DNA of 64,000 nt from Haliclona indistincta. Taxonomy: Eukaryota; Porifera; Demospongiae; Haplosclerida; Chalinidae. Below, piece after piece: positions 3,005-49,104 of the stretch (within the stretch, counting starts at the first letter, position 1; each line of letters begins with the position of its first letter). A program made the translations under genes and the position numbers. The stretch lies in contig OZ024785.1 in the NCBI GenBank assembly GCA_964017065.1, positions 1,693,142 to 1,757,141 of the forward strand. Reading direction: 5' to 3'. The notes under the pieces were generated by a model. It was not told the origin of the DNA. It saw only the letters and a list, made by a program, of their open reading frames with translations, and did not search any database.

Positions 3005-4658
3005 CTAGTCAATTTCTGACAGTGCTGTTTTAATGGCTTGTTTAGTACACTCTCCTCCCTGACCCTTCAGCCATGCAGCAAGCATTTCTCGCATGCGCTG
3101 TTTGGCTTTGCTGTAATCAGCTTCAATTTCTTTCAAAGCAAAATAATTCACTTCGAGCTGTAGCCCAAGATCAAACCAGTCACTGCTTTTACACTTCAGT
3201 GCTGTCAACAAACTAGCAAGATGTGAGATATCTGCATGTATAGTGTCACATTGATACATTCACTACAGCAAACAGTACTCACCTAGTGTACCATCATCAG
3301 GTATGGTAGATAGATCAACAGTGGATACTGGTGATGCAGCCATAGGTACAGAGGGTGAAGCACTAAGATCTGTAGGAACTGAAATGAGCATGATGGAAAT
3401 TTGATATTAAGTCACAAAATGAATTACAAAGCTAACCTTTTAAAACTGATGGTGAATGTTTGATGACAGTATCTGAGTCTAGTCCTGCTACTATCTATAG
3501 ACATAATACATATGATCATGAGTCTTACCAACATGAGTGTTAACTCACCAGAGGATTTCTGCCTGCAAATATACTAGTAGTGTCGGCCAAATGCTTCTTC
3601 AAACTTAAGTACCTCTGGGGCTTCAATTGAGGCATCCTACACCGTTCTTCCACTACATAAATGTGGGGATACCAGAATTAATGACTTCACGACTTTAGCA
3701 AGTATATTTTTCTAGTCATGGGTAATTTTTGTACATGGGTATTTGTCTGAATAAAAATATTACCTGAACTAACACGAGCTCTCAATTCAACAGCTGCATG
3801 TGATGGTGGTGGTACAGTAGAGGAAGCGGCAGCTGTTGCTAATGGTAATGCATGGATGATTTCAATGCTACTAATCACTTGATCACCTGTGACAGGACAG
3901 TATTTTTCTTCTATTTTATTAGCTACACTGTTCTCGTTCATATCCTTCAAAGCTATGATAAGCTCTTTCCAAGATGCATCAGGATAACATTTCTGCCACA
4001 CGTGGAGCATCTCAGCCTTCATTCTATCAACACCATCAGTACGGTGAGTGGATTCAATCTTGCGTAATTGGCTCATAGTCAGATCCAGATGTACGCCAAG
4101 TAGATGCCAATCAGTAACATTGCTTACTGCTCTAACATAATCTTTAACTGAGGGAGAAGTTGCTAAAGAAAAATCAACAACAATCTGTTCACTATAATTG
4201 GGGCGAGCCTGAGCGAGCCCAACATTGATGGTGATGTGCGTCCCACGTCGCGGGGAATTTTTGTATGTATGTATCTTGCCGCGTGGTGCGTTTGTCCTCC
4301 CTATGTTCCCGAGAAGTTACGTGCGCGTACACATTGACCGCGCCCCATGATGAAATCCTCACGTGGCGCGATTGAAAACAAGACAGCGCATTGGAGACGC
4401 CTGGATCTACAAGGTAAGAGTACTGCCAGGAAGCGACAATGAGCAGCAGAGTCACCTGATCACAGAGCTCTACGACTGGAGCGACAACGGGAATACAAGA
4501 GCAGAGGGCTCACTGTTGTGCATATGTAGAAAAATGGATTGTTATTGAATTGTGCAGGACATAATCAGCTCAGGCTCGCCCCCAGTATTTTATAAATGTG
4601 CTAGTAATAATCATACCCTTTGACTGTGACTCATCAGGTACTGTGAAATTTATATCTC
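3005..4658 (-). CDS. protein with two Death domains (3' part of gene, six exons)
   Basis: Six minus-strand exons join in phase by my reading: 4617-4658, 3764-4162, 3549-3652, 3437-3494, 3283-3378 and 3005-3231, ending in TAG. The second and last exons each encode a Death domain. The first runs from SVKDYVRAV through DWHLLGVHL to the KIEEKY helix. The second runs from HLASLLTAL through DWFDLGLQL to IKTALSEID. Both keep the helix-2 D-W pair and the L-x-x-A-L-x-x-M/I region typical of the family. Between them lies a Ser/Pro/Thr-rich linker. Death domains form homotypic signalling contacts in apoptosis and innate-immune adaptors; the partner here is unknown. The 5' exons are missing: upstream of 4658 the sequence becomes a foldback element at 4717, so the gene either continues beyond the transposons or is truncated. 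Confidence 0.75.
4200..4583. mobile_element. MITE with GGGGCGAGCCTGAGC terminal inverted repeats
   Basis: GGGGCGAGCCTGAGC at the left is matched by GCTCAGGCTCGCCCC at the right. The element lies wholly within the intron between the 4617-4658 and 3764-4162 exons of the Death-domain gene, and those exons still join in phase. Related ends occur near 19070 and 19550. Confidence 0.65.
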
Positions 4659-13838: not shown

Positions 13839-14048
13839 TCACTTGTCAGCTAGTGTCTTCAGCTTGATTGCTCTGAGGGACTGAGCCAGCTCAACAGTAT
13901 CTCCACCACTGTTATAAAACTGTTCAATGAGGTCATCTGGTACAACGCCTGTAGCTGGCATCATCTCCAGCTCTTTAACAAGAGCTAATATATTAGTGAG
14001 AGACATGGCTGTAGTGAGAGACTCTGCAATTTGAAGCTGATTTTCGTC
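13839..14048 (-). CDS. last exon of the Roco gene
   Basis: The acceptor TTCTCTAG precedes GAC GAA AAT. The exon encodes 69 residues ([10 protein letters not shown]... to ...KTLADK) and stops with TGA at 13841-13839. It is in phase 0 with the AAG/GTATAG donor at 14107/14106 across a 58-nt intron. The predicted segment is helical, with no domain I can name. Confidence 0.75.
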   Translation of the reverse strand, partial: DENQLQIAESLTTAMSLTNILALVKELEMMPATGVVPDDLIEQFYNSGGDTVELAQSLRAIKLKTLADK

Positions 14049-17000
14049 CTAGAGAAGTACAATAATAACAGTGTTCCTGAATTAAATTGTCGTATTATAC
14101 CTATACCTTAGAGACTTGTTTACTATCCTTGTCAACAGGGCAGAGCCAATATCGTTGACTATGAGTAGGCTTGAAGCTGTGATCATTATGCTGACAGTGA
14201 AGATAATCGATCACAGTTTGCTCTTGACTAAATTCACAATACATATCTTGATGGTATCTGAAAGAAGCCATCTGAGCTGGATCAATGCACTGAGTGCAAC
14301 AGAAAGCAAGCTGAGGATTTGCTTCTGGCAACCATTCGGAGATTGAAGTAAAGGACCTTTGTAACAACATGAAGAAATTTCTGCATGACATTCGAAAAGA
14401 TATTTCTGATTGTTCTTTACGAAAAAATTGAATTTTTACTGTGCCTGTGTACTCAGTGATAATCAACCTGTCCACTTTCTCAAAACGCATGGTGATTTTA
14501 TTACACCAGATGCCAACACGAAAGAGAACTATGACACATTTTTCTCTAGATAGACAGGTTGCTAGTCGTACAAAGAAGCCAGGAGGAACGTAACCAGAAC
14601 TAAATACAATGTAGAGAGAAGATGCTCTTTTGACAAATGACTGTGGTGAATTAGAAGCGGACTGCACATCTACTGTACCAAGACTATTACTGTGCTTCAA
14701 CATCAGAGGAACAAAGTACTGCTTGCTGTTAGTTTCAGAAAAGTCAATCGCTTCTTTGATGTTAGCAGCCAGTTGGAACTTCTGTAACAAATTCAAGACT
14801 GCATCAGGAGTGACATTAGTGCCCTTTAAGAGCGGTCTAAGCACTTCAATGTAGAGTGGCTCAGTAAGAACACCATAGTCACTAAACAATGCATACATCT
14901 TCTTGGGCCTATTTTGATATTTCCACTTGCAAAAGAGTGTTCCAAACACATCAACCAGCCACTGGGGCTCTAGGATCACCACAGACTCAAGCCCATGCAC
15001 ATTAGGGTAGAACAACAGCACACCAAGCTCATGATAGAAATTGAGAGCACTGGGAACCTCATCTCTAGGAATAGAACATTTCCCAGCACATCTGTAAACT
15101 TCATCCAATTCCACGACTGGCTTTCCAACATAGGGCTGCAACACATTGCGGAATTCAACCCAACTGACTGGAGTATCTTTAGAAAGATTGTCTTGAACAA
15201 ATTCATAGATAGTCTCTCGAAGCTGGCCGATTCCTTTGTCTTCTCTCTCTCCCATTCCTGCAGTAGTATTGTCAACTACTACTCCTTCCAGTTCATCCAT
15301 AAGAATGTTGGAGTAATCTTTTTCCTTGACAACTGACAAAATCTTATCTAGGCACTTCCTTTTAGACTGATCTGGTCTAAGCTGGTCAGCATGAGTTCCA
15401 ACTAAGATTATCCTAGGATAAGATGGTAGTTGTGCTTCACCACCTCCACCAAACCGAGCATGAATTGAAGCCATCCACATCTGGAGGAGGCTCAAGGCAG
15501 AGATATCCAGTGTCTCTTTAATGTGACTATGTCCATCAATATTGACAATAACTTTACAAGGATCATCAAGTTCAAGAGAAGCATCAAAGACAAGTAGAAA
15601 TACTGTTCTGGAGCTAAGAAAAGCAGGAAGAACGCTGAGAAACACAGGTTGACCACCACAGTCCCAGATGTGAAGCAACACCTTATTTTTGGGAGAATCA
15701 GACTTAGATTCTACCATTTCTTCAATAACATTCTCTCTGTACTGTGCCAATGATTGATCACTACTTTCCTGACATGACATGGATTGAACTCTACGTACAA
15801 GAGAACAATGAACCAACTTATACTGCTAATGAGTAAGAAATGCATTCTATAGCTGAACAGTCAAGTTACCTTCTTATGCGGTGCACATTTGAGCTCTTTG
15901 CAGCTTGAGCAACTTCTTGCATCTTATCTTCAATTGAAAGTTCTGTCCAGTGACTATATCGACCCTCCCCTGTTTTTATCCAGAAGTACTTGACAGATCG
16001 AGTACTAGCCAGAATAGTTGAGTTAGCTCTGTCAGGTAGCTGCTGATTCATCAAGCCATGTATCAGACTAGTCTTTCCCGCTGCTCCCAAACCGATCAAC
16101 ATGATACGACCATAAGATACCTTCACACTTCCTCTCTTCAGTGCTTGAGAATACACCTCAGACACTCAAAAAAATTCAAAATGAGCAATCTTTTACCTAC
16201 ATACAACTCTTACTTTTCTAATGAAATAAATAGTTATTTAGTTACTTGATCCTTGAGCACAGCACAACATTAAACTCACCTGTCTGATATCATGCTAAGA
16301 CAAAAGAAAACGAATTAATTCACAAGCAGTTTTACAATTCACAATAGATGACACAACTCACCTCTTTAGGCTATAGTGACAAAAACAAGAAAGAAGAAAA
16401 AGTTATTCCAAGCAGATGTTGATAGAAATTACATGCACAAAATTAAAGACTATTTCAGTTGAACTTACCCACTGCATGATGTTGATCATAGAGTAGACAG
16501 AGAAGGAGAAAAGAGGTAATCAAACACCATAAGATGCACACAATAATTCAGTTTTACTCACTTTCTGATTTTGATGACAGAGTAGACAGAGAAGGAGAAA
16601 GAAAAAATTAAACACCGTAACATGCACACAATAATTCAGTTTTACTTACCCTCTGATGTTGATGATAGAGTAGACAGAGAAGGAGAAAAGAGATAATCAA
16701 ACATCGCAACATGCACATAATAATTGATATTACTCACCCTCTGATGTTGATGATGGAGTAGAAAGAGAATAAAAGAAATAGTCAAACACCATAACATGCA
16801 CACAATAATTCATATTACTCACCTCCTGATGTCGATGATAGAGTAGACAGAGAAGGAGAAAAGAAATAATTAAACACCATAACATGCACGCAATAATTCA
16901 TTTTTACTCACTGCCTGATTTTGATGATAGAGTAGACAGAGAAGAAAAGAAATAATTAAACATCATAACATGCACACAATAATTCATATTACTCACCATC

Positions 17001-23000: not shown

Positions 23001-26000
23001 GACCAACCGGAAACATTAACTTATCGATTCAATAGTTATAGATTCTATTTATAGTAACACTCAGCACTATGCCGTCTACATTAGTTGCATGCCATCTCGC
23101 CGCTTCGCGGCTCGATAAGCCCTTGACACCATAACATGCGCGCCGTCTATAATTCAGTTTTACTCACCGCCTGATGTTGATGATAGAGTAGACAAAGAAA
23201 GAGAAAAGAAATAATCAAATACCGTAACATGCACACAATAATTCATATTCCTCACCTCCTGATGTCGATGATAGAGTAGACAGAGAAGGAGAAAGAAATA
23301 ATCAAACATCGTAACATGCACACAATAATTCAATTTTACTTACCAGCTGATGTTGATGATAGAGTAGACAGAGAAGGAGAAAATTAATAATCAAACACCA
23401 TAACATGCACACAATAATTCAATTTTACTTACCAGCTGATGTTGATGATAGAGTAGACAGAGAAGGAGAAAATTAATAATCAAACACCATAACATGCACA
23501 CAATAATTCAATTTTACTTACCAGTTGATGTTTCTGATAGAGTAGATAGAGAAGGAGAAAAGAAGTAATTAAACACAGTAACATGCATACAATAATTCAT
23601 ATTACTCACCCTCTGATGTTGATGATAGAGTAGACAGAGAAGGAGAAAAGAAATAATCAAACACCGTAACTTGTACACAATAACTCTGTTTTACTCACTT
23701 CCTGATGTTGAGGATAGAGTAGACACATAAGGAGAAAATAAATAATCAAACACTGTAACATGTACACAATAATTCAGTTTTGCTCACCTCCTGATGTTGA
23801 TGAAAGAGTAGACAGAGAAGGAGGAAAGAATCGAACAAATACCATAACATGTACACAATAATTCAGTTTTACTCACCCTCTGATGTTGATGATAGAGTAG
23901 ACAGAAAAGGAGAAAAAAAATAATCAAACACCGTAACATGTACACAATAATTCAGTTTTACTCACATCCTAATGTTGATGATAGAGTAGACAGAGAAGGA
24001 GAAAATAATTGAACAAACACAGTAACAGGCACACAATAATTCAGTTTTACTCACCGACTGATGTTGATGATAGAGTAGACAGAGAAGGAGAAATTAAATA
24101 ATCAAACACCGTAACATGTACACAATAATTCAGTTTTACTCACATCCTAATGTTGATGATAGAGTAGACAGAAAAGGAGAAAATAAATAATCAAACATCG
24201 TAACATGCACACAATAATTCAGTTTTACTCACCCCCTGATGTTGATGATAGAGTAGACAGAGAAGGAGAAATTAAATAATCAAACATCGTAACATGCACA
24301 CAATAATTCAGTTTTACTCACCCCCTGATGTTGATGATAGAGTAGACAGAGAAGGAGAAAATAAATAATCAAACATCGTAACATGCACACAATAATTCAA
24401 TTTTACTTACCAGCTGATGTTGATGATAGAGTAGACAGAGAAGGAAAAAAGAAATAATCAAACACCGTAACATGCACACAATAATTCAGTTTTACTTACC
24501 AGCTGATGTTGATGATAGAGTAGACAGAGAAGGAGAAAAGAAATAATCAGACACCATAAGATGCTCACAATAATTCTTACTAGCTGATGTTGAAGATAGA
24601 GTAATAATCAAACACTGTAACATGTACACATTAATTCAGTTTTACTCACCTTCTGATGTTGATGATAGAGTAGACAGAGTAGGAGAAAAGAAATAATCAA
24701 ACACCATAAGATGCTCACAATAATTCAGTAATACTCACCAGCTGATGTTGATGATAGAGTAGACAAAAGAAAAAATCAAACACCATAGCATGCACACAAT
24801 AATTTAGTTTTACTCACCCCCTGATGTTGATGATAGAGTAGACAGAAATGGAGAAAAGAAATAATCAAACACTGTAACATGCACACATAATTAGGTTTTA
24901 CTCACCTTCTGATGTTGATGATAGAGTAGACAGAGAAGGAGAAAAAAATAATCAAACACCGTAACATGCACACAATAATTTAGTATTACTCACATACTGA
25001 TGTGGTTGATAGAGTAGACAGAGAAGGAGAAAAGAAATAATCAAACAACGTAACATGCACACAATAATTCAGTTTTACTTACCGCCTGATGTTGATGATA
25101 AAGTAGACAGAGAAAAAGAAAAGAAGTGATCAAACACCGTAACATGCACACAATACTTCAGTATTACTCACTTTCTGATGTTGATGATAGAGTATACAGA
25201 GAATGAGAAAAGAAATAATCAAATACTGTAACATGCGCACAATAGTTCAGTATTACTCACCGCCTGATGTTGATGTTAGAGTAGACAGAGAAGGAAAAAG
25301 ATATAATCAAACAACGTAACATGTTCACAAATTCAGTTTAACTCACCGTCTGATGTTGATGTTAGAGTAGACAGAGAAGGAGAAAGAAGTAATCAAACAC
25401 ACTAACTAGCCTCATACCCAGGCTTTCTGGTGGAAATTTTGATTATACGTGGGTGGTGAAGTACGGGGGTGGCGATTGAGAGCCTGGTATCCAGTGTTCG
25501 CACATGCGCAGAATATTCTTGGAATTCAAAGAATCCATTTTGCGTATTTTGCGTAAATTTTGCGTCATTTTGCGTAAATTTTAGCCACTACATTTCTGGT
25601 GCACTGTAGAGTTGTTTTACAGGTTCTTGACACCAGCAGAGGTCTAAATCATGCAGTTATAGCATAGCTACGAGTGTTTGACCAATCAGATTGCCCAGTT
25701 GCCGGGTTATATTTCTCATATGACCCGCGGGTTTTCATATGACCTGGCTACAAGTCATTGTGTTATTTTATGGAATTCATGATTGATAATAAAAATTATT
25801 ACTATTCATAATAACTGCTGTGTAAACAAAGTCGGAATACAACACAGAAAGCAGGTGAATGATGACTGCAGAGATTTGCTGATTTGTTTTAGGTACAGTT
25901 AACCTAGAGCTAGAAGTCTGCTGCTGCTGATGGTAGGAGCTACTAGGTGATGCAGAGTAGGTAGATAGTGCTGTAACAGAGCTGGATAGTGTCGAAGAGG

Positions 26001-29000
26001 CAGTGAGGGAGGAGCTGGTTAGTGGTGATGGAAATACTGGAACAGTAGTAGATGAGAGAGTGGATTGGAGTTAGTTATTGGTGAAGAGGCATTCTGGAAA
26101 AAGCTGGTGGGTGCATGGTATGTCAAGACGGAGGTTAGCGGTAGTAGATGAAAGGGTGGAGCTTGCAAGGGCCGGGCTAGTAACCGGCGATAGAAGTCAC
26201 TGAGAGCGAGCTGCGCGATGGACGGTGGTTGTGGTGGTGGTAGTACGTAGTAGCTGGGATAAAAGCTATTGCTGTTGGAAGGAAGACTAGCCGTAACTTG
26301 TTGAGTCGTCTTGGACAAAAACGCAGCAGCTCTGGACACTCAAGTCAGCAAGCTAGAAAGCGTTCCACCGTAGCTTTTGCGTCAAAAGTGCTGTTGCTAC
26401 GCTATAAATAACTTAGATACCTCGTCCGCGGGTCATACATGATTTATAAACCCTCCGCGGTAAGTAACGACCTCGCTACGCTCGGTCGTCACAACAACCG
26501 CGTCGGGTTTATAAATCCCGTATGACCCTTGATTCGGTATCTAACTATTATATATAACATGCTTTTGTTATTATTTACAGTGTGTATATACATACACAGT
26601 AAAAAGCAGGTAAAAGCATCATGTATTATGTTGTGAAGGGTGTGGACTGGAGGCGTGGCTAGCATAATGCAAAGTAGCTGCTTCTGAGCCAGGCATGGCA
26701 GTTATTCTACTCACCAGCTTCTGCAGTAGATTCAGCTGCACTCGGCACTTGATTGTTGTTCTTCCGTCGAAAGAAGCTATCTAATCGTGGAGTTTTAGCA
26801 ACATCGAGTGCTTTTATGTGACGAGCACTGCGCTTGTGCTCTGAAACATGGTAGTCGCTTAATCCAGTGAGATCTTGGCCGCATTCACAGCGGTAGCGCG
26901 CGTCGCTTTCTGGCCTCTGCTGCTGCAGCAGTGTTCTGCATGATCGCGATCGATACTGCGCTGATGCACCCGTACCCGCACGATCGACAAGCTAGCTACG
27001 TACGCGATCGTCGTCTGTTCATGAATATTAATTAGCTTGGATTGTGAATATCGTTATTATGACATCTTATGATGTAGTGGGTGGGTGGGTATTGGGGCTA
27101 TGTAAAAAACCGGCCTGGGGTCGAAAATTTCCGCCACTGACACCCCCTGGCTGTAGCCTATGTAACTTTGCGGCGCATTCCAGATGGTATTTTAGGCTGT
27201 TAAGTGAGTAGAAAACTGGAGAGAGTTGCCCGCAAGCTAGAACAAGTCTATCAGGCATGACACGTGGACGTACAAGGCTATACCTTAGTCTTGATAAACA
27301 GGAAGGCACCTCGTGGAGCTACACGGATCATGCGCTTTGTGCAAACATTGTCCCACTTGATGCTCTTATGGTAGGCAAACCCAGGCTTGTGGGAGATGCA
27401 GACGCTCGATCAATGCAGTGAAGGCGAAGCCATGTTGGAAACAAAGACGTCATAACGATATCTCGGTGGGCGATAATACGTCATGACGCGTGCTTCTGCT
27501 CTGAGCGCTCATTAATTAAAAACGCTAGATACCAGGCTCTCAATTGCCACCCCCGCATTTGACCACCCACGTATAATTCAAATTTCCGCCAGAGAGCCTG
27601 AGTGCGAGGCTAATACAGTTACATGCAAACAATAATTCAGTCTTACTCACCCCCTGATATTGATTGTAGAGTAGACAGAGAAGGAGAAGAGAAGTAATCA
27701 AACACCGTAACATGCACACAATAATTCAGTTTTACTGACCTCCTGATGTTGACGATAGAGTAGACAGAGAATGAGAAAAGAAATAATCAAACACTGTAAC
27801 ATGCACACAATAATTCATATTACTCACCATCTGATGTCGTTGATAGAGTAAGCAGAGAAGGAAAAAAAGAAATAATCAAACACCGTAACACGCACACAAT
27901 AATTCAGTTTTACTTACTGCCTGATGTTGATGATAAAGTAGACAGAGAAAAAGAAAAGAATTAATCAAACACCGTAACATGCACACAATAATTCAGTAAT
28001 ACTCACTTTCTGATGTTGATGATAGAGTATACAGAGAATGAGAAAAGAAATAATCAAACACCGTAACATGCACACAATAATTCAGTTTTACTCACCGCCT
28101 GATGTTGATGATAGAGTATACAGAGAAGGAAAAAAGAAATAACCAAACACCGTAACATGCACACAATAATTCAGTATTACTCACCGCCTGATGTTGATGA
28201 TAGAGTAGACAGAGAAGGAAAAAGATATAATCAAACAACGTAACATGTTCACAAATTCAGTATTACTCACCGTCTGATGTTGATGTTAGAGTAGACAGAG
28301 AAGGAGAAAGAAGTAGTCAAACACACTAACTAGCCTCATACCCAGGCTTTCTGGTGGCAATTTTAATTAAACTATGATATGAATAATTCTCTTTGATGTA
28401 ATGAGGTATCCAAATTCGCATATTCACCTGTGCGTGGGCGGGTGTAAAAAACATGGCGCCACCACGCACTAGACAGCAAACTAAGTGCCGTTTATCATGC
28501 TATTTGTATGTTTTGCTGCATTTCGGGCAGCTTGCTGGTACAAGAGTGCTATTTTCTCTCCAAGTAAGTCGAAATCATAGTTTAAACCGGTTATAAACCT
28601 CGGTTTTCGGTGCATATGTGAATTTGGATTCCTCGGGCTTCGCCCTCGGTATCCAAATTCCCATATACACCTCTACCTCGGTTTATAACCTACATTTATA
28701 CGTGGGTGGTGAAATACGGGGGTGGTGATTGAGAGCCTGGTATCCAGTGTTCGCACATGCGCAGAATATTCTCGGAATTCAAAGAATCCGTATATTTTAG
28801 TTCACTATTGTGTTACTTTGCGTCACGTTTACGGGAAGACTGTTTCTGATCGTGCACTAAGGCTATGCTGTAGCCTATGTAACTTTGCGGCGCATTCCAG
28901 ATGGTATTTTAGGCTGTTAAGTGAGTAGACAACTGGAGAGAGTTGCCCGCAAGCAAGAACAAGTCCTATCAGGCATGACACGTGGACGTACAAGGCTATA

Positions 29001-32000: not shown

Positions 32001-35000
32001 GTTCTAGAGAACAACAGGTTATGTCTTTTACAGGACCGGCACCGTTCCTCGAAAGCTGTGCAATTTATTTTATTAAAAAATTTCACTTGAACAAGAAAAG
32101 CAAGCGAACAAGATTGAGGTAAAACTAGTAGAGGAAGTACCATCCATTGGAGCCACTTTTCAAGTTTACCCAGAGAATGTGATTATTCAACAGGAAAAGA
32201 AGATGAAACTAGAAAAAACAGCCATCCAAGACAATCCTAACGTTCCACCTGCCACTTGTGAGAAGGAAATACTACTCCTGTGTTTAATTTTAGTTTGTGT
32301 CATGTTGTATTTCATAATCACAATCGGTACCTCATGACGTTCCTGCTTTTGATGTAAAGTATTATGCAATGTGACAGTATGCTATTCTAATGTGACAGTA
32401 TGCTAGCCTGAACAACAAATGTATACATAGCTCCGGCACGAACTCTCACCTCGTTCAGATTTCGATGTTACGCCCATTTCACTCTCATGTTTATTCTGAT
32501 TGGTTGGCAAAAGCTGTTTCAAGCTGCAATGACTACAGCAAACAATGCTGTATCAACAATCTGACTGCTGCTATCATTGTTTCTATAATCCAGGAAACTG
32601 TTAAACGTCGATTTTTCAAAAAGCGCGTTGCTTTTGCTGCCAGGTTGCAATGTGGTGCTTTTCGAAAATCGACGCCTGTTAGTTGAAAAGTGTCTAAAAA
32701 ATCCTGGATAGTAGAAACAATGATAGCAGCAGTCAGATTGTCAATACAGCATTGTTTGCCGTAGTCACAGCTTGATACAGCTTTTGCCAACAATCGGAAT
32801 AAACATGAGCTGAAATGGGCATAACATCGAAATCTGAACGAGGTGAGAGTTCATGCCGCAACTATGTATATGGGAATTTGAAAACCTCATTACATCAAAT
32901 GGAATTATTCATAACTTACTTTAATTCAGTTTTACTCACCTCCTAATGTTGATGATATAGTAGACAGAGAAGGAGAAAAGAAATAATCAAACACCGTAAC
33001 ATGCACACAATAATTTAGTATTACTCACATACTGATGTTGTTGATAGAGTAGACAGAGAAGGAGAAAAGAAATAATCAAACACAGTAACATGCACACAGT
33101 AATTCAGTTTTACTTACCGCCTGATGTTGATGATAGAGTAGACAGAGAAGGAGAAAAGAAATAATCAAACACTGTAACAAGCACACAATAATTTAGTATT
33201 ACTCACATACTGATGTTGTTGATAGAGTAGAAAGAGAAGGAGAAAAGAAATAATCAAACAGCGTAACATGCACACAATAATTCAGTTTTACTCACCATCT
33301 GATGTTGTTGATAGAGTAGACAGAGAAGGAAAAAAATTATAATAATAAAATACCGCAACATGCTCACAATAGAGAGATTAAGTTTTTATTACTTGTACGT
33401 GTAAAATGTAAAAGATCACGTGAGCACTACAATAAGTGGGCTGGGCTGGCTTACCGATATTTTACCCTAGATTTAGGAGACTACGTAACCGGGATTGGAA
33501 ACGGTGCATGTGCGTTGAAACACTCCGCGTCCGTTGCTAGGGTGGACTTGCAATATGGCTGTCAGCTGCGCAGCAACGGTAAAACGACAAATACATAAAG
33601 GAGACTCCTGCACACATTGTAGTGTTATGTTATTAGGGAGGCACGGTAGTGACTCCCTATGTAGGGTTGAACGGAAAAACTGGCTGTTCATAAGATCAAT
33701 ATTTTGTCACAAGCTGAATGCACGTCAGGTGTCAGTCAACAGCAACTAGCTGAACAAGCTATAGGCATCCACAGCAGCCACTGATGTAGGGATCTATGTA
33801 GGGATGAACGAGAAAATAAGATGGCGGCTACATACAATGTATTAGCGTTCAAACGCTGATATTACTCCTAGTGATGAATTTTATACGTCCAAAGACACTT
33901 AGATCTGCTTTCTGCCATTGCCCTATCTTACAGTAGCAAGGAGATTGCTCGAAATGGTCACTAAAGTGACGAACCTGGAAACGGTGAAAATCGACTTTCG
34001 TCATCTTCGTTTTCTACTTTCTTCTTCAACTCGCCTAGCGCCTTTACGCGAGCAGTGCCGAGACCAAAACACCCACGAACGGTTCCATACAAAACTTCAC
34101 TAAATGATAAAATTGCCTACACTATTTGGGAGAGATTTGGTGCCCTATGGCATTAAATCTTGCCAATAACACTTGTGGGATTGGTCACTAAGCAGCTACA
34201 CTAACTGTTTCCTCCACTATGTAGAGAGAAATTAGTGCTAGGTAGCACTAAATGTGTCCTACAATAATGAAGGGGTATTACAGTGGTGGTCACTAAATTT
34301 TCCCTACATTACTATAGGGGAGAAATAGTGAACACAGCATTAAATTTTTCGTAAAGTAATGTAGGGAAGAAATAGTGCAGCCCACACTAAATCTTGCCCA
34401 AGTGGTGTAGGGTATGAATAGTGAAGAGGGTATTAAATGTGAAACGTCCAAGGTGTAAACATGAACTATCTTCTTGGCAAAGCTCACAACATTAGCAAAG
34501 GGACACTGTAAAACATGGAATATGATTCTGGAAGACGCCCATAATTTGAGCGTCTACGTGCCATGGACTGGAATGGCACCATTTTTGCATAGTCTCGCAC
34601 TAGAAACTACTAAACCCTAAACCCAAGACCCTAAAAACCTTCGCCTAACTGCGCAAAGTCGGGAGGGGCGTCCTAAACTGGGCCTTCGGCCCTTGCTAAG
34701 CCTAAGGATCGTTGGGAGGGTCACCCTAAACAGGGCCTTCGGCCCTTGCTAAAGGATTGATCTCGTGAACAGTTGATCAGCTGAGAGTTGATCGTGCAAG
34801 AGTTGATCTCAAGTTGATGTGATTCCCATTATTTTGTACATAGATGCTCAAATTATTTACATTCCAGATCACATTCCATGTTTGTTGGGACGCTGTAAAA
34901 TGCGGAATAACGGAATAGCAGAATAACGGAATTGCGGAATAAAAGAACTAAACCCTAGACTCAAGACCCTAAAACCTTCGCCTAACAGCGCCCAGTATTC

Positions 35001-44000: not shown

Positions 44001-47000
44001 AACAGAAACTGCATTTCTTTGTAGGCGTGCAATTGACAACGAAGACATGACTTGCTTCCTTGAACGAAACTGACGAATAAGTATCGAGAATGATAGTGTG
44101 TCAATAGCAGCAAGAGCAAGAATAGAGCTGAGATGATATCGAGTAAGACAAGTAGTCAAGTAGCTTATCCAGATAGCAGTGTGATACAAGATCAACAAGC
44201 AGAGGTGAGAGATAGATCCTGTAACGAGTGTGAATGACGGTTACGAAATGATGGAGTGATGGATTAACAAGGTCAATTTGAATTGTACGTAGTGCGTCGA
44301 AGAGTCAAGATCGTATCAAGAGATGCTGAACAGATTACAAGTGTGTTGGAACTTTGCTGTAAGCGAAGAGTAGTTATGCTTTAAACAAGAACAATACAAC
44401 AGCAAATTGAAACAAGTGAGGCGACTGACAGCAAGAGAATCGTTTGGTGATATTGTGTCCAAGAGACTGTATCCAATAATGCGAGGTGTTCGAGTAACAC
44501 AAGGTAATGAGCGAAGAATTCTACTGTGAGATCGAGCGGTGTAAGAATCAAATGGCTAACGCTAGATCAGAGCAACGAGAGGGAGCTTTGACAAGAAACA
44601 ATCCGAATTGATGCACAGATGATGCGACGAATGTTCATGTACCAATAAGAGTGTCTTGTGTCAGGCAACAGGGGCAAGTATCACTGTTAGCAGGTGATTA
44701 TACAACTATGAGTGTTCCTTGTACTATCAAGTAGACGAGTTATCAAGTGAAGGTGACTTCTCAGTAGATCAATAGTCACGTATGATGAGTGAGTTGTCCT
44801 TGTCAGTACCAACGAATATAATAGTGTAAGTAAAAGGAATCGACGAATGATTAAGAATGTACCAACCGTCAACTAATTTGAACCAAACAAGCCGAGTGGC
44901 AGAAAGTGAATGTCAACAGATGAATACAAGAATTGCGTCTTTGCTATCGAACAGATTGATGAGCGAAAGATAGTCAATTTGTCAACATTTTTACGACAAG
45001 TGATACTGTACTAGTGAACAACCAAGCACTGCAGTTGAGTGTGAATATGAACAACTACGTAACACGTTCTGTAACGGAGTGAGCAAAGGAATGAGTGAAT
45101 TCTCTCTGTGTACACTAGTCGGCAAGCGAAGGGATAGAATGAAACTGTCGGGTATGTCTCCTGTGCTAGTGAAGAGTTTCGTGTACAATGATCAGACAAG
45201 TGGCAATAGTATGAGTCTCTCTGTGCCAGTGAAACAGACAAGTTCTGGAGGCACCAGCGATCAGACGAGCGGTATTGTATCTCTCCGTGCCAAGGAACAG
45301 ACGAGTCCTGTGTGCACCAGTGAGCAGATGAGCGAATGGGTATAGTCTCTTTGATCAGACGAGTGCTTGAAGTTCCGTGCAGATGAACAAATGAAGACCA
45401 TCAGTGTGAATAGAGCCGTATGTGTGATACTCTCTGTACCAGCAAACAGACCAGTTCTCTGTGTATTCCAGTGAGCAGACGAGTGAGATCTCTCTGTGCT
45501 AGTGAACAGACGTTTTCTGTGTGCACCAGCGATCAGACGAGCGAAGGAGTGTCTCTCTGTACCAGCGAACAGGCGAGTCCTGTGTGCACCAGTGATCAGA
45601 CGAGCGAAGAGTAGTCTCTCTGTGCCAGTGAACAGGCGAGTCCTGTGTACACCAACGATCAGATGAGCGAAGAGTAGTCTCTCTGTGCCAGTGAACAGGC
45701 GAGTCCTGCGTGCACCAGTGATCAGATGAACGAAGAGTAGTCTCTCTGTGCCAGTGAACAGGCGAGTCCTGCGTGTACCAGCGATCAGACGAGTGTATTC
45801 TCCCTAGCCCGTGAACAGACGAGTTCTGTGTGCACCAGCAGTCAGGCGAGCAACAAGGAGTGTGAGACGGTCAACAACGACAAGGAATGAGTATACGGTC
45901 AACAACGACAAGGAATGAGTGTACGGTCAACAACGAATTAGTGTTGAGGTGATGTCCAGCAGGTGAACAGCCACAGTGGTATCGATGAAGTAGAGAAAAT
46001 GAAGGAGAAAACAGCCAATGTACAACCACGTGGTAACGACAATGGAGTGAGTATAGACAGCGGGAGTAGCAACAACAGACTTGAGAAACATGGCAAGAAC
46101 CGATGTAACGCGTCAGTAGATGTTCCAAGACTGTCGTAGTACGCAACAACGAGATTGAATCAGAGTGGTGACGGTAGCACGTGGTTTTCTCAAGATCAGG
46201 TAACGACAAGAGCTGAATCAGGCACAGTTCGATAAATAAAGATGGACAAAGTGAAAAGATGACACTTCACTTCATCCGGTTCGAAGGACCATAATGTAAG
46301 CGCCACTACAGCCCAGGATTGGCTGGATCAGTTTCCCGTGGTTGCGGCCATGTTGTTACTGCCACAAAAACTAATTAATATTCACAATACGTACAAATTA
46401 CAACAATGAGAGTGAGCGAGTGGGAAATGAGAACAGACAGTGTAAACAATAAGATGAGCAAGAGAAAAAGACTATAATAGGCTTGAACACTCCTTGGTGC
46501 TGTAAGATGGGGCAACGCCAGAAAGCAGATCTAAGTGTCTTTGGACGTACAAAATTCATCACCAGGCGAAATATCAGCGTTTGAATGCTAATACATTGTA
46601 TGTAGCCGCCATTTTTCTTGACCATCCCTACATAGGGAGGCACTACCTTGCCTCCCTAATAGTTACACACCCGAACGCTCTGCTACATGCTAGACTACAG
46701 GTAAACTCGCTACGTCTGCAAAACTTAATCGCCATTAGTCTACAATTTACACGTTATGTGTTTATAAAACTTAACCTCCCTAATAATTCAGTTTTGCTTA
46801 CCGCCTGATGTTGATGATAGAGTAGACGAAGAAGGAGAAAAGAAATAATCAGACACAGTAACTTGCACACAATAATTCAGTTTTACTCACCAGCTGATGT
46901 TGATGATAGAGTAGACAGAAAAGGAGAAAGAAATAATCAAACACAGTAACATGCACACAATAATTCAGTTTTACTCACCAGCTGATGTTGATGATAGAGT

Positions 47001-49104
47001 AGACAGAAAAGGAGAAAGAAATAATCAAACACAGTAACATGCACATAATAATTCAGTTTTATTCACCTCCTGATGTTGATGATAGAGTAGACAGAGAAGG
47101 AGAAAAGAAATAATCAAACACAGTAACATGCACACAATAATTCAGTTTTACTCACCGCCTGATGTTGATGATAGAGTAGACAGAGAAGGAGAAAAGAAAT
47201 AATCAAACACCGTAACATGTACAGAGCTAGTAATTCAGTATTATTCACCTTCTGATGTTGTTGATAGAGTAGACAGAGAAGGAGAAAAGAAATAGTCAAA
47301 CACCGTAACATGTACACAATAATTCAGCTTTACTCACCGTCTGATGTTGATGATAGAGTAGACAGAGAAGGGGAAAAGAAATAATCAAACACCGCAACAT
47401 GCACACAATAATTTAGTATTACTTACATACTGATGTTGATGATAGAGTGGACAGAGAAGAAGAAAATAAATAATCAAACACCGTAAAATGCACACAATAA
47501 TTCAGTTTTACTCACCTCCTGATGTTAAAGATAGAGTAGACAGAGAAGAAGAAAAGAGAATTAATAATCAAACACCGTAATATGCACACAATATTGAGTT
47601 TACTCACCGGCTGATGTCGATGATAGAGTATACAGAGAAGGAGAAAGAAATAATCAAACACCGTAACATGCACACAATAATTCGGGCGTATAGAGAGAAG
47701 AGGGCATGCAACGCAATAGTACCCGTGAAAACATCGAAATCTTAATTGTTACTAAGAATAGCACTTTCCGTTATCAGTTATTGTTATAGTATACGGAGGG
47801 TAAACGGAAACTGACGTCACTACACAAAGTAATGGCAGACCAAGCTGAAGAACACTGCACAATACCATCCTGCGCGCGCGGATCACAGCCACGCCAGTCA
47901 AAGCGGAGAAAGAACGTGACTTCGCCTCTGTCCGATACTGCTCGTCACCTGTTGCTGGTAAAATACTCTCCAGCCGATCAGCAGGAAGCGACAGCGCCAA
48001 CGATAGACAGCAGTTTCGTTTTACCTGCGTCTCAACCAACACCATCAGTGATACGCGACATGGCTGGCAACTACCAGTATCCACAGCTTCACTGATGTCG
48101 ATTGTAGATTTGTCAGCTAGTTTTCCATGGAGCACGCCTCGACAAGTACGCTGTATGACGCGTCCACGTTTTATGAACCTTGCGTGATGTCACATCCGCG
48201 TGGGCGTGAAATCTAATTTTAGTAACAACTAGGATTTCGATGTTTCTATGCGTTGCACGCCCTCTTCTCTCTATACGCCCTTGGTATTACTCACCTCCTG
48301 ATGTTGATGATAGAGTGGACAGAGAAGGAGAAATAAATAATCAAACACCGTAACATGCACACAATAATTCAGTATTACTCACCTCCTAATGTTGTTAATA
48401 GAGTAGACAGAGAAGGATAAATGAAAATAACCAAACACTGTAACATGCACACAATAATTCAGTATTACTCACCTCCTGATGTTGATGATAGAGTGGACAG
48501 AAAAGGAGAAAAGAAATAGTCAAACACCGTAACATGTACACAATAATTCAGTTTTACTCACCGCCTGATGTTGATGATAGAGTAGACAGAGAAGGAGAAA
48601 AGAAATAGTCAAACACCGTAACATGTACACAATAATTCAGCTTTACTCACCGTCTGATGTTGATGATAGAGTAGACAGAGAAGGGGAAAAGAAATAATCA
48701 AACACCATAACATGCACACAACAATTTAGTTTTACTCACCTCCTGATGTTGATGATAGAGTAGACAGAAAAGGAGAAAAGAAATAATCAAACTTACCAAA
48801 AATTCAGTATCACTCACCGTCTAATGTTGATGATAAGAAATTAGAAAAGAAAAAATGAAACACCATAAGATGTACACAATATTGTATAGCGGGAAATTGA
48901 ATGCGCGAGATAGAGATTTTCGCAAATCAGCGCTATTGGCCAACTAAAAGAAGACATTCACGGATAAATTTTCGGAATAGCCTGTAATTTGCAGAGAAAT
49001 CATCATGCATGCTGAATACATGTAGAGTTTCCGAAATTACATATTTAGGGCAGGCCCCTCCCTTTTCATGTACTTACCGAACTTGGCTTTTCCTTGGTCG
49101 CCAT
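13839..49104 (-). CDS. Roco GTPase gene with a one-codon microexon array (whole-gene model)
   Basis: Proposed model on the minus strand: a first coding exon 49104-49078 (9 codons), then 79 microexons in four arrays between 48823 and 16469, a 9-nt exon (16370-16362), a 15-nt exon (16294-16280), the ROC exon (16156-15870), the large ROC-COR exon (15790-14107) and a last exon (14048-13839) with TGA. Every junction is phase 0 except the ROC/COR junction, which is phase 2 on both sides. If all units are spliced in, the protein has about 825 residues, near the usual size of a small Roco protein. The N-terminal roughly 100 residues would be helical and charged, ahead of the P-loop. Roco proteins are GTP-regulated dimers that scaffold signalling. 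The ROC-COR end is secure; inclusion of the microexons is inferred from splice signals, phase and composition and is unproved. Confidence 0.65.
14107..15790 (-). CDS. ROC (part) and COR domain exon of the Roco gene
   Basis: This long exon holds the rest of the GTPase: the G3 motif WDCGGQ, a segment after it ([16 protein letters not shown]), and the G4-like VGTHADQL. It is followed by a COR domain ([15 protein letters not shown]..., [29 protein letters not shown]). After COR comes a beta-rich, Cys-containing tail similar in layout to other invertebrate Roco proteins. I place the acceptor at CTTGTACGTAG/A (15791-15792), after the tract TTCATTGTTCTC. This gives a 79-nt intron and restores phase with the previous exon, whereas the nearer-looking TTAG and CAG sites 30 nt upstream would break the frame. 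The exon ends at AAG/GTATAG. Confidence 0.88.
15870..16156 (-). CDS. ROC P-loop exon of the Roco gene
   Basis: It encodes [17 protein letters not shown], a lead-in typical of invertebrate Roco proteins, followed by [18 protein letters not shown], in which G-L-G-A-A-G-K-T-S is the nucleotide-binding P-loop (GxxxxGKT/S). The exon ends in phase 2 at AGAAG/GTAACT. The acceptor is TGTCTGAG/GTG, giving phase 0. An alternative AG eight bases upstream (TTTTTTTGAG) would give phase 1 and would not fit the phase-0 small exons. The only in-frame upstream continuation is a stop (TGA), so this exon needs a 5' partner. Confidence 0.85.
16280..16370 (-). CDS. 15-nt and 9-nt microexons between the array and the ROC exon
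   Basis: The 15-nt exon (16294-16280) has acceptor TTTTGTCTTAG and donor GTGAGT and encodes HDIRQ. The 9-nt exon (16370-16362) has acceptor TTTTTGTCACTATAG and donor GTGAGT and encodes PKE. Their introns differ from the 88-bp unit, so they are not simply array copies, yet both lengths are multiples of three and in phase with the ROC exon. They look like older, diverged members at the edge of the array. For 16280 a 4-nt alternative (acceptor ATATCAG) exists but would break the frame. Confidence 0.6.
16469..18110 (-). repeat. array A: 19 intron/one-codon units
   Basis: Units of 78-93 bp, mostly 85-89. In transcription order, with the lower coordinate of each three-base exon: 18053 GAG, 17965 GAG, 17876 CTG, 17784 AAG, 17696 AGG, 17609 GCG, 17516 CTG, 17428 CTG, 17340 GAG, 17255 TCG, 17177 AGG, 17086 GCG, 16997 ATG, 16912 GCA, 16823 GAG, 16738 AGG, 16650 AGG, 16562 AAA, 16469 TGG. 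These read EELKRALLESRAMAERRKW. Almost every unit has ATCAG before and GTGAGT or GTAAGT after the three bases. Exceptions are acceptor ATAAG at 17340, acceptor ATGCAG at 16469 and donor GTGAAT at 17784. Unrelated sequence begins at 18111, inside an intron copy. Confidence 0.95.
18869..19767. mobile_element. nested MITE with ACGGAAGCCCAGAGCGG ends
   Basis: ACGGAAGCCCAGAGCGGACA at the left is repeated inverted at the right. The arms extend about 150 bp through a purine/pyrimidine block (TTCCACTTTCC/GGAAAGTGGAA). CAAATG(T) flanks both sides as the likely target duplication. The two sides of the interrupted sequence together match one continuous stretch at 21770-21850 in inverted orientation. It is non-coding. 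Confidence 0.75.
20870..21310 (-). pseudogene. degenerate non-LTR retrotransposon (LINE) reverse-transcriptase fragment
   Basis: Minus-strand reading gives, with frame breaks, the run [16 protein letters not shown], then [21 protein letters not shown] and [16 protein letters not shown]. These are the A-D-D catalytic motif, the W-S-x-x-N segment, the YLGV/I segment and the R-x-x-L-E-Y-A segment of CR1/Jockey-like LINE reverse transcriptases, in the right order. Several stops and indels show it is dead. Confidence 0.75.
21933..22658 (-). CDS. small multi-pass membrane protein, three exons, inside the TIR element
   Basis: Exons 22658-22301, 22245-22082 and 22016-21933 join in phase (1, then 0) at GTAATG, GTAAAC and two clean acceptors (TTGGTTGCAG, TTTTGACAG). 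They total 201 codons with a TGA stop. An in-frame ATG seven codons upstream (22679) is an alternative start. Hydrophobic segments include [26 protein letters not shown] and [18 protein letters not shown] do not recognise the family. The gene is complete although it sits inside a TIR element within an intron of the Roco gene, on the same strand, so it is either a captured gene still under some constraint or a recent capture. An unannotated transposon-encoded protein is the alternative. Confidence 0.6.
23126..25406 (-). repeat. array B: 26 intron/one-codon units
   Basis: Transcription order: 25347 ACG, 25261 GCG, 25172 AAA, 25083 GCG, 24994 TAT, 24906 AAG, 24818 GGG, 24739 CTG, 24650 AAG, 24581 CTA, 24500 CTG, 24411 CTG, 24322 GGG, 24233 GGG, 24144 GAT, 24055 TCG, 23966 GAT, 23877 AGG, 23788 GAG, 23699 GAA, 23610 AGG, 23522 CTG, 23433 CTG, 23344 CTG, 23256 GAG, 23168 GCG. 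The first fourteen read TAKAYKGLKLLLGG and the last twelve DSDREERLLLEA. At 23522 the usual acceptor AG is lost (see findings). The units ending at 23344 and 23433 are identical over 88 bp, showing recent duplication. Unusual donors are GTGAGG (23256), GTGAGC (23788) and GTAAGA (24581). The intron before 24581 is only about 66 nt and lacks most of the pyrimidine tract. Confidence 0.95.
25407..27612. mobile_element. 2.2-kb TIR element (TAGCCTC family) inside array intron
   Basis: It starts TAGCCTCATACCCAGGC and ends ...GAGGCTA, with about 90 bp of terminal inverted similarity. The flanks ACACACTAAC and ATACAGTTAC match 7 of 10, consistent with the 10-bp target duplication seen perfectly for the relative at 9752. 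In array units the corresponding sequence is usually ACACxGTAAC, so the insertion is within an intron copy. It carries a zinc-finger exon (26715-26940, minus) and an exon-like piece at about 27200-27420 that is repeated at 28921-29139. Confidence 0.75.
26715..26940 (-). CDS. zinc-finger exon carried by the TIR element
   Basis: The minus-strand frame contains [20 protein letters not shown] followed by [14 protein letters not shown] and LDSFFRRK. This is a C-x-C...H-x(4)-H type finger, as seen at the N-terminus of transposon-derived proteins in invertebrates. It ends at a good donor (GAAGCTG/GTGAGT). The start is not clear, and I did not find the downstream exons. Confidence 0.5.
27613..28330 (-). 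repeat. array C, part 1: eight intron/one-codon units
   Basis: Transcription order: 28271 ACG, 28185 GCG, 28096 GCG, 28007 AAA, 27918 GCA, 27828 ATG, 27740 GAG, 27651 GGG, reading TAAKAMEG. The donor after 27740 is GTCAGT, the only donor lacking A or G at position +3. This block and its flanks resemble parts of array B and of the block at 29330-29690, pointing to segmental duplication. Confidence 0.95.
28424..28568 (+). other. first-exon-like fragment inside transposon
   Basis: An ATG in good context (AACATGGCG) near 28453 opens about 37 codons with a basic then hydrophobic stretch ([15 protein letters not shown]), ending at a CAA/GTAAGT donor. It is surrounded by transposon ends, so it looks like a captured first exon. 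No family is recognised. Confidence 0.3.
28921..29139 (+). other. exon-like ORF repeated in both TAGCCTC elements
   Basis: It encodes a run containing [20 protein letters not shown] and LDKQEGTSW, ending in a stop. The same sequence with a few changes is at about 27200-27420. A splice-acceptor-like context upstream suggests a terminal exon carried by the element family. No domain is recognised. Confidence 0.35.
29330..29690 (-). repeat. array C, part 2: four intron/one-codon units
   Basis: Transcription order: 29622 ACG, 29532 ATG, 29444 GAG, 29368 GGG, reading TMEG. The intron between 29444 and 29368 is shortened to about 73 nt. The order ATG, GAG, GGG repeats the 3' end of the eight-unit block at 27613-28330, supporting block duplication. 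Confidence 0.93.
31005..31530. repeat. long inverted repeat (MITE)
   Basis: The arms start GGTGACGGTTACCAGTTTG and run about 170 bp each, through GAATATAACCGTC and GATCGAACGCGCCGTC, around a centre of about 160 bp. It abuts, and shares the CTTAAGG end with, the neighbouring element at 29707-31008. Confidence 0.75.
32430..32870. repeat. near-perfect hairpin element
   Basis: The arms begin GAACTCTCACCTCGTTCAG and fold back over about 190 bp each. They include CAATGATAGCAGCAGTCAG and GCAAAAGCTG, with a short centre near 32620-32680. The ORFs on either strand here are the two faces of the same palindrome and are not genes. Confidence 0.8.
32931..33370 (-). repeat. array C, part 3: five intron/one-codon units
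   Basis: Transcription order: 33296 ATG, 33207 TAT, 33118 GCG, 33029 TAT, 32940 GAG, reading MYAYE. Acceptors are ATCAG except ATTAG at 32940. TAT-containing units alternate with a GCG unit, as if a two-unit block had duplicated. Confidence 0.95.
33633..35935. mobile_element. foldback element copy split by a nested insertion
   Basis: The left arm starts at TTAGGGAGGCACGG (33633) and runs to about 34085. The element resumes at about 35640 with CACGAACAGTCGTGAAATTC. The intervening block at about 34086-35633 has repeated sub-terminal motifs of the type TAGTG...CACTAAAT and the GGCGCC repeats described at 34975-35200. Confidence 0.6.
34975..35200. repeat. palindromic array of short GGCGCCCAGTAT repeats
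   Basis: About five copies of a 21-22-bp unit (CCTAACRGCGCCCAGTAT) on the left are answered by about five inverted copies on the right, meeting near 35085. Flanking inverted sequences (GGAATAACGGAAT, CTAAAACC) extend the palindrome. Related copies are at 19850-19920 and 21535-21725. Confidence 0.75.
36945..41340 (+). mobile_element. Ty3/gypsy LTR retrotransposon, degenerate
   Basis: The left LTR starts TGTAGTAAACATGC at 36945 and probably ends ACTACA near 37165, before a primer-site-like TGGCGACGAGGAT. The right LTR (41135-41340) matches it but lacks the last 15 or so bases, where another repeat begins. A purine tract (AAAGGAGGGAGGAA) precedes the right LTR. Internal order is gag, protease, reverse transcriptase, RNase H, integrase. 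Confidence 0.9.
37186..41139 (+). pseudogene. gypsy gag-pol remnant
   Basis: Gag starts at ATG 37186 ([10 protein letters not shown]). A zinc knuckle ([14 protein letters not shown]) is at about 37855-37900, in a different frame. The protease motif [12 protein letters not shown] is at about 38130. The reverse transcriptase has [13 protein letters not shown] and YLDDILV (about 38995). RNase H has [14 protein letters not shown], and the integrase has an HHCC region ([12 protein letters not shown]..., CSECQLHQ) and D-F-A-G-P. The reading frame changes at least at about 37810, 38900, 39740 and 40480-40560, so it cannot make a polyprotein. Confidence 0.85.
41345..42810. repeat. repeat debris: ATGCCACG-family arm and foldback inner arm
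   Basis: 41345-42347 is an inverted relative of sequence at about 7390-9530, ending in the hairpin GCCACGACTACCGCGTGGC. 42352-42810 matches the inner part of the foldback family (AAGATTTCTAACG..., CATAGATCCCTACATC). No gene was seen. Confidence 0.6.
42865..44198 (-). CDS. gag-like ORF of the BEL/Pao-type element, two frames
   Basis: The 44198-43527 frame is helical and charged ([55 protein letters not shown]), in the style of retroelement gag N-termini. A second frame, 43485-42865, is rich in Ser and Thr and follows it with a stop and frame change between them. The assignment rests on context and style rather than a diagnostic motif. Confidence 0.35.
45150..45870. repeat. minisatellite of about 63-bp units in the leader of the BEL/Pao element
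   Basis: Units contain GTCTCTCTGTGCCAGTGAAC, AGGCGAGTCCTG and CACCAGTGATCAGA. Three or four units at 45560-45780 are almost identical, with older diverged units on the left. Shorter GGTCAACAACGACAAGGAATG repeats follow at 45865-45935. No function is assigned. Confidence 0.8.
46783..47683 (-). repeat. array D, part 1: ten intron/one-codon units
   Basis: Transcription order: 47608 CCG, 47516 GAG, 47427 TAT, 47338 ACG, 47249 AAG, 47156 GCG, 47067 GAG, 46979 CTG, 46891 CTG, 46802 GCG, reading PEYTKAELLA. Unusual donors are GTGAAT (47067, 47249) and GTAAGC (46802). Acceptors are all ATCAG. Confidence 0.95.
47684..48280. mobile_element. 0.6-kb TIR element inside an array intron, with an ORF
   Basis: The terminal repeats GGGCGTATAGAGAGAAGAGG face their inverse at the right, and similarity extends about 60 bp (GCAACGCA, AAACATCGAAATC). 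Array unit sequence borders both sides; a TTC/TTG target duplication is possible but not clear. A plus-strand ORF, 47832-48095 (MADQAEEHC...), of 87 codons has no recognised domain and could be a captured exon. Confidence 0.7.
48281..48890 (-). repeat. array D, part 2: seven intron/one-codon units (5' end of the array)
   Basis: Transcription order: 48821 ACG, 48740 GAG, 48651 ACG, 48562 GCG, 48473 GAG, 48383 GAG, 48295 GAG, reading TETAEEE. Acceptors are ATTAG at 48821 and 48383 and ATCAG elsewhere; donors are GTGAGT. Similarity to the unit stops near 48885, where ordinary intron sequence begins. The next good donor upstream is that of the 49078-49104 exon. Confidence 0.95.
49078..49104 (-). 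CDS. candidate first coding exon of the Roco gene
   Basis: On the minus strand, GAAAGATGGCG gives an ATG in good context, then nine codons (MATKEKPSS) ending TCG/GTAAGTA, a consensus donor. It ends in phase 0, as required by the three-base exons. The intron to the first microexon (48821-48823) is about 254 nt. It is chosen because it is the nearest upstream ATG-plus-donor in the right phase; untranslated exons or an earlier start are not excluded. Confidence 0.55.

Follow-up and report, generated by a model that had tools for sequence, protein, structure and literature searches.

Background

In Dscam-type arrays, one region of the protein is varied by means of tandemly duplicated exons, which are long and mutually exclusive. 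Stepwise splicing occurs at recursive splice sites, in which the acceptor directly abuts the donor (AG/GT) and zero bases are left. The locus described here lies in a window of Haliclona indistincta DNA, by which we mean the whole stretch of 64,000 nucleotides that was analysed, and consists of an array of short units ahead of a Roco gene. As in Dscam-type arrays, its predicted exons are tandem duplicates, although each would hold one codon and they are apparently additive. It shares the acceptor-by-donor layout of recursive splice sites and differs from them in that 3 nt separate the two signals in 429 of 429 units, so that one codon would remain. Introner-like elements are near-identical introns dispersed over many unrelated genes, whereas the exact junction pattern of this array family (family A) is confined to regions with Roco arrays (178 of 178, type A).

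Among genes rich in microexons, the schistosome MEGs have a central coding part made mostly of microexons, and 26 of the 33 in MEGs 26-32 are divisible by three; the microexons are shorter than 36 bp and the proteins are small with a signal peptide, according to the consulted part of the report (PMC4671649). The predicted structure of the Roco gene, with 79 units plus 9- and 15-nt exons in an open frame, would fit a MEG-like layout and would share with MEGs a coding part of mostly symmetrical microexons, but tens of tandem one-codon exons are not described for MEGs in that part of the source (PMC4671649). The Roco protein is also not small, since its ROC-COR part alone measures 725 aa, and its predicted start, MATKEKPSS, is by eye unlike a signal peptide. 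The amphioxus mirages count few units (the globin example has 6 and 3) and reportedly leave regular splicing undisturbed (PMC3087553). Tandem duplication of an exon-intron boundary is shared with the mirages, the unit here spanning acceptor, codon and donor; the array differs in its 3-nt spacing, its open frame and the splice sites kept in nearly all units. A mirage array would be idle in splicing; the AG and GT of the array, kept against neutral expectation, are indirect evidence against such idleness here. As excerpted, the literature on very small exons includes a 1-nt exon in Arabidopsis APC11, the smallest characterised before it being 3 nt (PMC4674806), a 3-bp exon in Drosophila homothorax (PMC7392893), and plant microexons with two adjacent ones among them (PMC8831610). 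The APC11 and homothorax cases show that exons as short as 1-3 nt are within reach of the spliceosome, but these exons are single and not tandem. In the open-licence literature that we searched, no description of arrays of one-codon exons was found among the titles and abstract openings listed.

Results

Structure of the window gene

The minus strand of the window carries 79 units of approximately 89 bp, preceded by a first exon of 27 nt in phase 0 and followed, downstream, by the ROC exon (Table 1). A profile search returned 81 rows, two of which were weak (E 1.3 and 0.0068) and were dropped; the 79 kept agree with the hand count of the initial annotation, as does their orientation, all 79 being on the minus strand with the gene. 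The first exon (49104-49078, phase 0) likewise lies where that annotation had put it. The four blocks into which it had divided the array did not survive, and the units instead form seven clusters of 7, 10, 5, 4, 8, 26 and 19. Each unit comprises a donor (mostly GTGAGT), an intron of approximately 86 nt with a pyrimidine tract, an acceptor, three bases and the next donor. This agrees with the proposed sequence of full intron, exactly three bases and next donor, except that one of the 79 units has AA for AG; its upstream AG would yield a 12-nt in-frame exon. On the minus strand of the window, the pattern ATCAG-N{k}-GTRAGT with k from 0 to 12 gave 63 matches for k=3 and a single match for each of k=4, k=9 and k=12.

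The ROC exon had been given a start at 16156. A start at 16164 (TGTCTGAG followed by GTG) is more likely, because the 4-nt exon present in 9/9 paralogs keeps the frame only from there. The window gene would thus encode MATKEKPSS, 79 single residues, PKE, HDIRQ and then ROC. Its protein belongs to the Roco (ROC-COR) family, with Pfam matches to Roc (3.5e-13) and COR-A (1.1e-13) that are both above cut-off, and a protein search gave 458 matches, the 120 listed covering the ROC-COR part. The other introns of the gene measure 79 and 58 nt from the exon coordinates. The Death exon (Pfam Death E 4.2e-9 on the paralog peptide) follows within a few hundred bases in paralogs, versus approximately 9.7 kb in the window.

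Two further features were noted between the exons. Positions 47690-48280, between two microexon clusters, hold an insertion with inverted ends (GGGCGTATAGAGAGAAGAGGGC ... GCCCTCTTCTCTCTATACGCCC) that is probably a small DNA transposon, and positions 34905-35266 hold short-period tandem repeats (21-bp and 16-bp units) that by eye resemble a large inverted repeat.

Table 1 Predicted exons and microexon clusters of the window gene, and array-bearing Roco loci elsewhere in the genome
Feature	Position	Strand	Evidence and remarks
First coding exon	49078..49104	-	ATG GCG ACC AAG GAA AAG CCA AGT TCG + GTAAGT = MATKEKPSS, 27 nt, phase 0; 27 nt in 10/10 family-A arrays, 8 of them aligned
Microexon cluster 1, 7 units, TETAEEE	48281..48877	-	Profile search
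Microexon cluster 2, 10 units, PEYTKAELLA	46779..47675	-	Profile search
Microexon cluster 3, 5 units, MYAYE	32918..33367	-	Profile search
Microexon cluster 4, 4 units, TMEG	29336..29686	-	Profile search
Microexon cluster 5, 8 units, TAAKAMEG	27620..28334	-	Profile search
Microexon cluster 6, 26 units, incl. AA-for-AG unit	23141..25410	-	Profile search
Microexon cluster 7, 19 units, final unit ATGCAG-TGG-GTAAGT with codon TGG at 16471-16469	16449..18120	-	Profile search
9-nt exon CCTAAAGAG (PKE)	16362..16370	-	9-nt exon here in 9/9 paralogs
15-nt exon CATGATATCAGACAG (HDIRQ)	16280..16294	-	9/9 paralogs
4-nt exon AAAA, donor GTAAGA	16214..16217	-	9/9 paralogs; GAAA in 7/9; joined frame open
ROC exon, probable start at GTG after TGTCTGAG	15870..16164	-	Exon limits and paralog comparison
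ROC-COR exon	14107..15790	-	Pfam Roc and COR-A
Next exon of Roco gene	13843..14048	-	Exon limits
Death-domain exon, probably same gene, ~9.7 kb further 3'	3885..4160	-	tblastn 95.7% to paralog's Death exon
Array-bearing loci, 41-61% clade	C2:192260, 533850/538242, 3450603		Pattern matches or read arrays
Array-bearing loci, 41-61% clade	C3:5702452, 5721542, 5746951, 7117557, 7143314, 7173721		Pattern matches or read arrays
Array-bearing loci, 41-61% clade	Four on C5; five on C8 at 8.22-8.31 Mb		Pattern matches or read arrays

Family A across the genome

The genome searched comprised 144 Mb in 46 contigs. An exact pattern of CATCAACATCAGN and GTGAGTAA separated by 0 to 24 bases matched 178 times genome-wide (106 + 72), and its reversed control 0 times. 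Five fetched regions contain all 178 matches (31+106+19+17+5), with a gap of exactly 3 in each, and a profile search of these regions gave 432 units in ten arrays, all on the Roco sense strand. Nine of the ten arrays precede Roco paralogs whose aligned stretches are 81-91% identical to the window protein, and in each of these nine genes the ROC exon lies 271-301 bases past the last unit. The 27-nt phase-0 first exon was found in 10/10 arrays and the 9-, 15- and 4-nt tail exons in 9/9 genes. Joining the first exon, the codons, the tail exons and the ROC start gave a stop-free frame in 9/9 genes, one junction-less unit having been omitted in each of three genes and the AA-for-AG unit of the window having been taken as one codon. 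A Death exon is present in all nine genes and a hydrophobic C-terminal segment in four of the nine. The initial annotation had presented the array as what would be an extreme architecture of one gene; the arrangement of the units was confirmed, but it is family-wide and not peculiar to the window gene.

Individual family-A loci showed features of their own. The tenth array, C10a (G000:C10:6560326-6565487, L010), has 36 units and a first exon with no ROC match ahead of the next first exon, and is either an orphan array or an alternative 5' part. In the C10d paralog (L015, L016) the Death exon is followed by a tandem coding repeat (PPPSHA-like) and then a hydrophobic end, TWVLAIIVLFVIMCCITEIVYFAVH, which is possibly a membrane anchor. 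The C6a Roco copy (G000:C6:10466044-10468074) has an in-frame TAG that interrupts the long ROC-COR exon, as well as the sole TTAAGT donor in its array, and is likely decaying. The predicted tail of the paralog at C3:15.13 Mb includes TDWWYTSYELLEEEEEYEYPK.

Other array types and Roco clades

A loose pattern (acceptor, three bases and donor, occurring twice, 58-88 apart) gave 974 matches genome-wide versus 41 in the control, and 561 versus 1 when GTGAGTT was required, some of the 561 being family A. Among the matches listed, those outside arrays were TGAG-type simple repeats except one (C2:9776557). We rejected chance or simple repeats as the source of the arrays on the basis of these counts and of the reversed-pattern controls, which were 0 for the family patterns. 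The 3-nt spacing was present in 51/52 units of a type B array (C3:7.14 Mb), 22/24 of type C (C2:0.53 Mb) and 78/79 of type D (C5). Further intron types are E (C8) and F (C3:5.7 Mb), the latter resembling B, and the non-A arrays have ROC exons downstream on the same strand. Units of type B/F were also seen at G000:C3:7038081-7042070 and 7072265.

A search for Roco genes, in which 62 of 477 candidates were scored, sets a lower bound of at least nine clade-A genes and at least 20 loci at 41-61% identity. Array matches were found at all 27 loci examined of the 29 listed in these two Roco clades (all but C8:8960415 and 8965683). Eighteen of the 20 loci at 41-61% identity have array matches on their 5' side; seven of these loci had their complete array read and the others were recognised by listed pattern matches, C2:192260 by a single pair. 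When the 5' sides of four Roco loci picked by position (two on C8, one on C3 and one on C2) were read, arrays were present in 4/4, with 13, 44, 33 and 22 units after exclusion of one isolated match each in L033 and L037. No array match had been listed there beforehand, although reverse-strand matches beyond those listed had hinted at arrays on some minus strands. A distant Roco control (29% identity, n=1) had no unit in 2.5 kb. Viral contigs gave no match to the array pattern, and bacterial and archaeal genomes gave one match, with no second unit within the surrounding 200 bases. Contig C1 carries a large expansion of ROC-bearing long open frames (at least 156 matches, with 150 of 639 candidates scored); the loose pattern, among the matches listed, occurs there at six sites, all TGAG-type repeats, and no TCAG-type array was seen, TTAG-type arrays being not detectable by it.

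Sequence evidence for use of the units as exons

Three of the 432 family-A rows have no junction and were dropped. All 429 others have 3 nt before the donor, in 427 cases directly after AG. With a non-consensus rate of 0.0616 across 64 intron columns, 52.8 changes would be expected in the AG and as many in the GT, versus 2/858 and 3/857 observed. In both cases of a changed acceptor, an AG lies further upstream, and its use would yield in-frame exons of 12 and 9 nt. Of the donor changes, two are GC donors and the third is the one dead donor (TTAAGT), in C6a. Compensation between -1G and +5G is the pattern associated with U1 dependence of donors. In 427 of the 429 units, -1G is present in 22/22 without +5G and +5G in 99/99 without -1G (Fisher p=0.0036); the 22 represent 15 distinct gene/codon/donor combinations, and 12 of them come from one gene.

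A codon CAG or TAG would place a strong second acceptor directly before the donor. Among 656 codons pooled from six array types (A-F), CAG occurred 0 times versus 40.6 expected and TAG 0 times versus 18.5. This pool was gathered by simple patterns that took in 49/51 codons of B, 21/22 of C, 68/78 of D and 43/44 of L034, and the 22 of L037 lie outside it. In family A alone both codons are absent versus 30 and 15 expected, and CAA and CAT are absent as well. The CAG test loses strength when applied outside family A (p=0.024), because AAG is absent there too; glutamine in the pooled non-A families is encoded by CAA 15 times and by CAG 0 times, and the glutamate and lysine codons end in G in 106/136.

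TAA and TGA together occurred 0 times versus 6.2 expected in the pooled codons. When the ordered codons were read in frames 0, +1 and +2, the stops numbered 0, 12 and 23 in A, 0, 8 and 0 in B, 0, 2 and 2 in C, and 0, 1 and 2 in D. The argument from stops in family A leans on the shifted frames, because TAA and TGA are there only 0 versus 3.0 expected (p=0.04). Position 3 has an excess of G in four-fold boxes (162/177 vs 168/252, p 6e-10), but the corresponding degeneracy test is not robust, giving p=0.004 for distinct codons per gene, p=0.002 with second base not A, and p=0.60 with both restrictions. An AG exclusion zone was not seen, as AG upstream of the acceptor was not depleted (56 versus 58.7 in column shuffles). 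The tests treat units as independent, and all p-values are too small because the units are related by duplication. The predicted peptides are hardly conserved between paralogs, and conserved protein sequence is therefore unusable as an argument. The tests on exon use agree with one another. The earlier proposal that the trinucleotides are coding exons thus gains strong support at the level of sequence (selected splice sites, no stops, open frames, many Roco loci).

History of units and codons

Pairs of unit introns differ by 0.110 when taken from the same gene (0.091 when adjacent) and by 0.107 when taken from different genes. The long ROC-COR exon shows a synonymous divergence of 0.07-0.14 among eight family-A genes, C6a being excluded. 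The first two codon positions differ by 0.72 per site, versus a median of 0.086 in the introns, and the codon differs in 72% of the 364 unit pairs that are identical over 64 intron columns. The introns behave as a neutral clock, and the codon diversity exceeds what this clock allows.

Hypermutation of the codon was considered and found no support: of 37 pairs in which both flanks of the codon carry a shared rare variant (one occurring in at most 10 units), 22 have identical codons. When such pairs have at most 5 intron differences, 21/23 keep it, by a hand count in which several pairs come from one duplication; looser pair limits gave more codon differences (49% of 97 pairs and 57% of 166). 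One reading of the high codon diversity is diversifying selection during array growth, and another is older codon diversity with later homogenisation of the introns. The architecture itself is probably old, because arrays with differing intron sequences occupy the corresponding position in Roco clades of about one-half identity.

Discussion

We consider it very probable, from the sequence features described above, that the 79 units of the window are 79 one-codon exons joined in order by the ordinary spliceosome, and that the N-terminal tail of this Roco-Death protein is built one residue per exon. Splicing of the array would presumably proceed by intron definition across short introns. This is presumed because exon definition requires exons larger than 3 nt, and it is plausible because the introns of approximately 86 nt (median of 397) resemble the gene's own 79- and 58-nt introns. 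Each intron removal would extend the upstream exon by one codon, which would then directly precede the next donor, in a ratchet that retains three bases per step. The predicted product is a paralog-specific low-complexity tail, of 79 residues in the window, ahead of ROC-COR and Death with or without a hydrophobic C-terminal segment. The chemistry of the predicted tails differs by gene, being acidic-tryptophan, lysine-proline, glutamine-methionine or proline-serine. Placed before ROC-COR and Death, such tails would suit recognition or signalling roles, perhaps as a variable interaction or regulatory arm. Comparison between genes suggests that the arrays grow by duplication of unit blocks and that they persist in Roco clades only about half identical. 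Somewhat less firmly, yet still with good probability, the data point to a Roco family with tens of single-codon exons, in which a codon-at-a-time ratchet would produce paralog-specific and possibly individually variable N-terminal tails.

The reading in which the units are never used supposes a non-coding minisatellite, whose repeats duplicate an exon-intron boundary as the amphioxus mirages do and whose whole span is removed as one intron of approximately 33 kb. It draws on the tandem nature of the units, with their higher-order periods, and on the many mirage repeats that hold AG/GT signals, reportedly without disturbing regular splicing, in the consulted part of the source (PMC3087553). 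Idle splice sites should decay, however, and the near absence of changes in AG (2) and GT (3) against the approximately 53 expected, the avoidance of CAG and TAG, the coupling of -1G with +5G, and the persistence of arrays with different introns across Roco clades together make this reading very improbable. We would give even less credence to a splicing ladder, by which a long first intron is removed in steps, much like recursive splicing, and the codons that stay behind are side products that the gene tolerates, with no protein role. The AG-NNN-GT geometry is indeed like that of a ratchet site, and the predicted peptides are free to diverge between genes. A recursive site, however, leaves nothing where 3 nt are kept here in 429/429 units; the very codons that would permit AG/GT with a strong acceptor (CAG and TAG) are absent, and the span is long mainly from the array itself and the sequence between its clusters.

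Two other proposals concern the role or the origin of the exons. A combinatorial generator of isoforms is a variant of the main reading and not exclusive of it, in which the exons are real and frequent alternative skipping, yielding many tail variants per individual, is their main role. Skipping, from which the initial annotation had foreseen very large isoform diversity, would keep the frame because every predicted exon from the first through the 15-nt exon has a length divisible by three and lies in phase 0. TGCATG, which we take to be the RBFOX motif, lies downstream of the donor in 220/388 A, 33/48 B and 18/23 C units. An RBFOX-type motif is nevertheless not taken as the general mechanism, because it was not seen in D, E and F (it is missing from the family-D consensus, and none was found in the E and F stretches, 44 nt past each codon), and family A often has an A in place of its G (85 TACATG). 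Moreover, the near-uniform strong donors (GTGAGT in 355/432 rows) argue for constitutive inclusion; we regard isoform production as the main role as a tentative and doubtful proposal, and variation between genes, not between isoforms, is what the sequence directly shows. An introner-like origin, in which copies of a mobile intron broke up a formerly unbroken coding exon one codon at a time, concerns how the exons arose and not how they are used. The star-like introns, as different within genes (0.110) as between them (0.107) and close to the synonymous divergence of ROC-COR (0.07-0.14), would fit this origin, as would the changed codons in 72% of the 364 pairs with identical intron columns. 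Against it, random insertion would not be expected to leave 3 nt each time, all 178 exact family-A junctions lie inside arrays, and shared rare variants and repeated codon blocks demonstrate tandem duplication; we judge it improbable.

Conclusions

The main reading, that the units are one-codon exons of a Roco gene, would amount to a gene architecture for which we found no precedent, and to a codon-wise peptide alphabet that selection on splicing maintains. If true, it marks an extreme of gene structure, with runs of tens of one-codon exons at 27 Roco loci in a single genome. Such arrays would probably escape standard gene prediction and read aligners, and similar ones could therefore be hidden elsewhere. 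The long-standing question of how the spliceosome handles exons far below exon-definition size, repeatedly in one transcript, would become directly testable, and the protein sequence of these Roco genes could evolve through the gain, loss and rearrangement of single residues with the frame intact.
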